Shown piece by piece: positions 6,188 through 7,176 of a DNA stretch of 46,527 nucleotides. The notes under the pieces are model-generated. The model did not search any database. It saw nothing but the letters and a program-made list of their open reading frames with translations, and was not told the origin of the DNA. A program made the position numbers and the translations under genes. Source of the stretch: Deltaproteobacteria bacterium (GTDB lineage Bacteria; Desulfobacterota; Syntrophia; Syntrophales; Smithellaceae). How positions within the stretch are numbered: the stretch's first letter is position 1; the number at the start of each line of letters is the position of its first letter. Location: positions 1-46,527 of the forward strand of contig JANYAY010000127.1 in assembly GCA_025361065.1 (NCBI GenBank). The letters run 5' to 3'.

Positions 6188-6416
6188 CAGTTCCCGATCG
6201 CCAAGCAATAAAGAGCCGAATTCCTGATATTTTTCAGTATTCCCGAACACGCTTATATTTATGATTATTCCACTTGCCGTATTAGAGATCCGGTGAATAC
6301 CAGGTATGAGCCTGATCCAGTTTTGTAAAAAAAACCATTTGAAGCTAATCACAATTATGCTTATATTCAACCACGTTCTTAAGTAGATTATACGTTTTAC
6401 AGGAAAGGAATGAATG

Positions 6417-7010
6417 ATGATCGATTTGAAGATATTTTCCGATTATATCTGACCCTTCTGCTATATCGGCAAGGGCATTGTCGACCAGTTGAAGAAGGAA
6501 TACGCTATGGATGAGAAGTGGGTGAGTTACGAGCTTCATCCGGAGACGCCGCCTTCTGGAATGTTGCTCTCCGAGAGATTCAAAGGTTATGACCTCTCTT
6601 CGTTTTACGACCAGTTGCGCGCACGCGGAAAAGAAGCAGGGGTAGTGTTCGGCAACCACAAACTCCTGTCCAATTCCCGATTGGCGCTAATGGCCTCTGA
6701 ATTTGCCCGCGATCAAGGCCGGCATGATTCTTTTCATGAAAACATGTTTCATACATATTTTACGGAAGGTCTGGATATCGGTAATCCGGATGTTATCAGT
6801 GCCGTCGCCGGGAAAAGCGGTCTTGATGGAAAGGAGACGCTCCGTGCCGCAAATGACGGCCGTTATGCATCGCGGTTGGATGATGCCGGAAGAGAAGGGC
6901 AGTTGATTGGCTTAACGGGTGTGCCCCTGTTCATCATTGAGAACAAATATCAGATCGTCGGAGCTCAGCCGATTGATGTATTCCGCGATCTTTTCGAGAA
7001 AACTAAGTGA
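6417..7010 (+). CDS. FrnE/DsbA-family thiol oxidoreductase, probable selenoprotein (UGA = Sec at residue 12)
   Basis: Read through a single in-frame TGA (6450-6452), the frame gives a 197-aa FrnE-like DsbA protein: N-terminal strand IDLKIFSDYI, then U-P-F-C (residues 12-15) exactly where the family has its C-P-[WF]-C active site, followed by YIGKG, a helical insertion, and the cis-proline loop LTGVPLF at about 166-172, ending in a normal TGA at 7008-7010. Nothing else is broken: the frame is open for 185 codons downstream. AAAGGA at 6404-6409 is 7 bases from the ATG at 6417 (4 from another ATG at 6414). A SECIS-like hairpin follows the TGA. UxxC thioredoxin-fold proteins are known among deltaproteobacterial selenoproteins (established for the group; decoding here is inference). 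Alternatives: a nonsense mutation, or initiation at ATG 6507 (AAGGA upstream), which would give a protein lacking the active site. It would act as a cytoplasmic redox enzyme, since no signal peptide is seen. Confidence 0.85.
6458..6488 (+). promoter_or_regulatory. candidate bacterial SECIS element
   Basis: Directly downstream of the in-frame TGA. Upper stem TCGGCAA (6466-6472) pairs with TTGTCGA (6478-6484) over 7 bp with one G-U, closing a 5-base apical loop GGGCA (6473-6477). A lower CTG/CAG stem (6458-6460 with 6486-6488) is separated by an internal loop. The loop starts about 21 bases after the TGA and begins with G, which agrees with the usual bacterial SECIS geometry. A competing shorter hairpin CCCTT/AAGGG (6453-6457 with 6471-6475) also exists. 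Confidence 0.65.
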
Positions 7011-7176
7011 AAGCAGAGAGGGGAACCTCTAAAAAAATCGACTTAAATTTAAAGGGTTTATGAAATTCTCCCAAGCCCTTATCTTTTTGCCATGGGTATA
7101 ATTGCCTGGTACGATCCAGGTTCGGCCCATACCGAAAGACAACCGGGCACAATCACGTGAACGCCATTTGATAATG

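Follow-up and report, generated by a model that had tools for sequence, protein, structure and literature searches.

Introduction

FrnE of Deinococcus radiodurans (DR_0659; PDB 5cnw and others), predicted to be cytoplasmic, is reported to have isomerase and insulin-reducing activity and to be required for cadmium and diamide tolerance (PMC8945050). According to the same source, its 260-residue chain carries a C-terminal CXXXXC motif that regenerates the active site, and the FrnE proteins of D. maricopensis and S. roseofulvus are without this motif. The D. radiodurans gene (frnE, DR0659) is given as COG2761 (PMC1978522), and a selenoprotein family described as DsbA-like COG2761 is already published. 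It was reported in 2005 from nine Sargasso Sea sequences with UXXC (PMC1088965), appears as DsbA 1 and DsbA 2 with UxxC in ocean metagenomes (PMC2398784) and as 'DsbA-like protein form 1' (PF01323) in the table of a 2026 review (PMC13188914), is named again as form 1 in a further review (PMC9312934), and includes two Asgard sequences (PMC11227280). The table of a 2006 survey gives Anaeromyxobacter, Desulfovibrio desulfuricans and Desulfotomaculum reducens as DsbA-like hosts, and under Syntrophus aciditrophicus no such protein appears (PMC1794560). A literature search combining 'selenoprotein' with 'FrnE' returned no paper on the subject, as judged by title.

A review describes selC* tRNA-Cys species (Mukai et al. 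2017, via PMC7609411) that join U73 to a UCA anticodon and an 8/4 branch; selB* beside selC* is reported for Syntrophobacterales and Desulfobacterales. For tRNA-Sec, G73 is described as a requirement (PMC5330540).

The DNA analysed here, referred to as the window, is a stretch of 46,527 nucleotides from a bacterium of the Smithellaceae. Its frame at 6417–7010, on the forward strand, is best explained as encoding a predicted selenoprotein that belongs to the DsbA family, in its FrnE branch, and has Sec at UGA 6450; the product is probably a cytosolic disulfide enzyme. We hold the selenoprotein reading with high confidence. Because DsbA-like COG2761 proteins with UXXC are in print, the gene would be a further member of a known selenoprotein family; the features in common with the published descriptions, compared by description and not by alignment, are PF01323, Sec in the first position of UxxC, and a bacterial SECIS after the codon.

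An in-frame TGA at the FrnE active site

The frame opened by ATG 6417 contains an in-frame TGA at 6450–6452 (codon 12, the proposed Sec of UPFC), which is followed by 185 codons up to the TGA stop at 7008–7010; the read-through product has 197 residues. A plausible Shine-Dalgarno sequence, AGGAAAGGA, was located by eye at 6401–6409, ahead of tandem in-frame ATG codons at 6414–6419. Because an in-frame TGA at 6411–6413 bounds the frame upstream, an ATG start would have to be the one at 6414 or the one at 6417; relatives begin MI..F.IFSDYI at the position of the second ATG.

The read-through protein matched the Pfam DSBA model (E 1.3e-28, 100.5 bits, cut-off 25.6) and aligned over residues 4–187 with Deinococcus FrnE (PDB 5cnw; E 3.3e-20), with which it shares the domain, the active-site spacing and the GVP loop; an NCBIfam search of the protein gave nothing over cut-off. 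Both active-site cysteines of 5cnw fall on codon 12 and Cys15 (6459–6461). The CP[WF]C active site of the FrnE branch is present with U for its first Cys, where the original prediction had placed the TGA, whereas D. radiodurans FrnE has Cys at the position of the proposed Sec. The frame past the TGA was likewise found intact, as had been claimed, and includes GVPLF at 6918–6932 (GVPFF in 5cnw), which we take to be the cis-proline loop of the thioredoxin fold. Cys15, the presumed resolving residue, is the sole Cys codon of the frame, with none after it. The C-terminal CXXXXC found in many, though not all, FrnE proteins is absent from the 197 residues; this is not decisive against the FrnE branch, since the D. 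maricopensis and S. roseofulvus proteins are also without it. No obvious signal peptide was seen by eye. A structure predicted from only three sequences was of poor quality, with a mean pLDDT of 50.7.

The gene is solitary. Upstream, a chromate-transporter-like gene ends at a distance of 230 nt, and the downstream neighbour is nucleoside-phosphorylase-like and convergent. When the window was scanned for further TGA read-through candidates with redox-like motifs, 23 rows were obtained, of which none besides 6450 was convincing by eye.

The mechanical ORF list gives only TTG 6489–7010 at this locus, bearing out the expectation that gene callers would start inside and lose the active site; standard annotation would truncate or miss the gene. 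The existence of this ORF would also fit a reading in which translation terminates at TGA 6450 and a shorter protein is initiated within the frame, for example at TTG 6489. However, conservation across two subfamilies extends to the motif and to the 11 codons that precede the TGA, the shorter protein would be without any of the active site, and an internal start leaves the helix described below unexplained. We consider this reading highly improbable, and the codon at 6450 is treated below as a candidate Sec codon.

The TGA is conserved among relatives

Within the order, 155 genomes were searched, and 52 of them contain matches (56 rows); the class-level search drew the same 155 genomes and added nothing. 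Exactly one TGA is present in 54 of the 56 rows, and the two without a TGA do not cover residue 12, one lying at a contig start (in genome G136) and the other being a piece that begins at residue 66 (in G081). Seventy-eight TGA rows were read as DNA, comprising all 54 from the order and 24 more (two further loci and 22 from the phylum search). In each of the 78 the TGA opens a U-x-x-C motif: UPFC in 45, UPWC in 29, UPYC in 2, and USFC and UHWC in 1 each. Among the best 30 phylum rows, five homologs without a stop (L090, L092, L099, L108 and L112) have CPFC, as expected if Cys aligns to the TGA column; the remaining phylum rows, among the matches listed, were judged by stop count alone. The Sec-containing FrnE branch thus appears to be spread over an order and a phylum of anaerobes.

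Coding constraint was estimated from pooled pN/pS between the window's gene (L020) and 24 relatives. The ratio is 0.177 over the 11 codons before the TGA and 0.267 over the 184–185 codons after it, and we conclude that there is purifying selection on both sides of the TGA.

These data also bear on whether the TGA is a nonsense mutation, the mark of a pseudogene, or a sequencing error. Some relatives do carry TGA-bearing copies that are truncated or have a broken frame (L133–L136), which speaks for decay of this kind, but the same codon is found in tens of independent genomes and the sequence downstream of it is under purifying selection. The same-site TGA recurs in relatives with identities as low as about 30%, which upholds the original judgement that a chance nonsense mutation is unlikely, and its presence in independent genomes makes a sequencing error improbable. 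Altogether this explanation has a negligible probability, and the selenoprotein reading is retained.

The short or frame-broken copies L133, L134, L135 and L136 are in genomes G010, G081, G121 and G070; G010 and G070 each have, in addition, a complete copy at another place.

A SECIS-type helix follows the TGA

The sequence UCGGCAA-GGGCA-UUGUCGA begins 13 nt after the UGA and can form a hairpin at 6466–6484, with arms at 6466–6472 and 6478–6484 and the loop GGGCA at 6473–6477. The 51-nt stretch folds with a z score of -2.12, and 6 of 200 shuffles were equally good. The helix was then evaluated at a fixed offset from the TGA (+14 to +20 against +26 to +32, seven pairs) in the 71 distinct TGA sequences, with synonymous-codon versions as the control. 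At least six of the seven pairs form in 71/71 sequences (all seven in 55), against a synonymous expectation of 4.7 pairs. The pair total is 481, compared with 332.6 for the synonymous versions (sd 8.0; maximum 357 of 500), although the simulation overstates the independence of the test because the sequences are related. Sliding the partner arm by 1–3 nt lowers the mean number of pairs from 6.77 to 1.7–3.6. At the same offset none of the five Cys forms has six or more pairs. Position 2 of the helix loop is G in 71/71.

Pairs 16/30, 18/28 and 20/26 are of G-C or C-G type in some sequences and of A-U or U-A type in others. These swaps in pair type, which mostly distinguish the UPFC branch from the UPWC branch, mean that the changes in the helix are compensated. 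With such compensated differences between their SECIS helices, the two sub-branches offer clean material for studying Sec/Cys exchange.

Minimum-energy folding of single sequences gives a less uniform picture. The helix is part of the minimum-free-energy fold of only 41/71 sequences, with a competing fold in 30/71; among UPWC sequences it is found in only 5/28, another hairpin folding better. When each row is folded singly, only 26/78 do better than their synonymous versions at p<0.05 (mean z -1.29), as do 0/5 of the Cys forms (mean z 0.10). Rfam searches of the whole window and of 6300–7100 gave no useful RNA match. We conclude from the fixed-offset pairing and the covariation that a bacterial SECIS-type hairpin with an apical-loop G follows the UGA. 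This helix, which was absent from the original prediction, supports the proposal of a probable selenoprotein together with the homologs and the sel genes.

Selenium machinery and its co-occurrence with the TGA

All four sel components that the prediction called for are present in the same genome (3.95 Mb, 186 contigs): selA (608 bits), selB (364 bits), selD (379 bits) and tRNA-Sec (70.9 bits). The selD gene is itself of the Sec type, a TGA giving GAGUACK, and the tRNA-Sec is canonical with an encoded GCCA end.

Within the order, selA was found in 137 of the 155 genomes, and the TGA is not associated with it (46/51 TGA genomes vs 91/104 others, p 0.79), because selA is almost universal there and many of the genomes are incomplete. 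The five TGA genomes of the order without selA are 79–88% complete. Across the phylum there is a modest association: selA is over cut-off in 70/71 of the TGA genomes listed vs 285/324 of the others (Fisher p 0.004). A one-TGA homolog in genome G347 (contig C37:26064–26624), which is listed as 100% complete, is accompanied by only a weak selA match; we have no explanation for this exception beyond a missed or foreign gene.

Among genomes with no-stop homologs, 14 of the 17 examined have selA, which is absent from G187, G369 and G410. The closest Cys form among the best 30 phylum rows is in G187, a genome without selA, a combination that fits loss of the trait with replacement of UGA by a Cys codon.

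A proposed route to an active Sec enzyme

The selenoprotein reading is built on the observed TGA, its conservation, the selection on both sides of it, the helix with its covariation, and the sel genes. From these we infer that Sec is actually inserted. SelA and SelD would make Sec-tRNA-Sec, and the hairpin 13 nt past the codon would direct SelB to bring it to UGA 6450, so that the active site would read Sec-Pro-Phe-Cys. The product is probably a cytosolic disulfide oxidoreductase, as far as its sequence indicates, and would act as a soluble reductase or isomerase; this location and this redox direction are suggested by the FrnE likeness. The selenolate would attack a disulfide in the substrate, and Cys15 would resolve the mixed selenide-sulfide. 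Unlike the D. radiodurans protein, the product has no C-terminal CXXXXC, and an outside reductant would therefore have to regenerate the active site.

A second opal tRNA and a second CysRS

The genome contains a second tRNA with a UCA anticodon (L003; contig C127:12459–12553, minus strand), which is tRNA-Sec-like and has U73 and no encoded CCA. This selC*-like type (L003 and L052–L079) occurs in 28 copies in 27 of the 155 genomes of the order, all among the 51 genomes of the window's family. U73 is present in all 28 copies and UCA in 27. Variation at acceptor pairs 7 and 8 mostly preserves the pairing, and an A2:C71 mismatch occurs in 12/28; all 12 branch pairs (8/4) are formed in 15/28 rows, the others departing mostly at A2:C71. 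With the published selC* tRNA-Cys (Mukai et al. 2017, via PMC7609411) the extra tRNA has in common a tRNA-Sec-like cloverleaf, 8/4, U73 and UCA. It differs from the form described there in having G1:C72 and not A1:U72, in showing no T-stem adenosine bulge, and in lacking a neighbouring selB*, none being present among the ORFs of L003.

A second CysRS is also encoded in the genome; it is preceded, in the same fused protein, by a pyridoxal-phosphate-dependent domain resembling cysteine synthase (PF00291 + PF01406; L138:2801–4999, minus strand, contig C103).

These observations raise the question of whether decoding of the UGA by the second opal tRNA gives Cys, in all or some of the product, for example when selenium is scarce. 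Two tRNAs with UCA anticodons in one genome, the restriction of the second type to the window's family and the near-uniformity of its copies (U73, UCA, 8/4 branch), the fused CysRS, and the description of selC* tRNA-Cys and of possible UCA anticodons in the review (PMC7609411) would all fit such decoding. However, only the TGA forms retain the SECIS-type helix. The tRNA and the TGA-bearing frnE do not track each other within the family: the tRNA is in only 14/23 TGA genomes and also in 13/28 others, and therefore it does not explain the TGA. In the order's other 28 TGA genomes no match to the tRNA was obtained, a weak negative at the level of a blastn search. Finally, the genome has a single selB, no second one being over cut-off; the runner-up, L011, was considered as a second selB containing stops and was rejected, as it is EF-Tu followed by read-through. 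Decoding as Cys, whether complete or partial, is judged very unlikely, although some Cys insertion by the selC*-like tRNA is conceivable, and Sec at UGA 6450 remains the preferred reading.

A broader proposal is that UGA here, and perhaps in the family's other selenoprotein genes, is a two-way codon, giving Sec via tRNA-Sec and SelB, or Cys via the selC*-like tRNA charged by CysRS (possibly the fused one), with the form set by the selenium supply. We regard this as a speculative and unlikely scheme; since a conserved Cys-type opal tRNA coexists with the gene, whether the UGA gives Sec or Cys can be tested directly.

Two irregularities were seen among the selC*-like tRNAs. Genome G028, in which selA was not found (94% complete, 9% contamination), has two copies on one contig, C241 (L063 and L079), and the copy L072 has anticodon GGA and G33.
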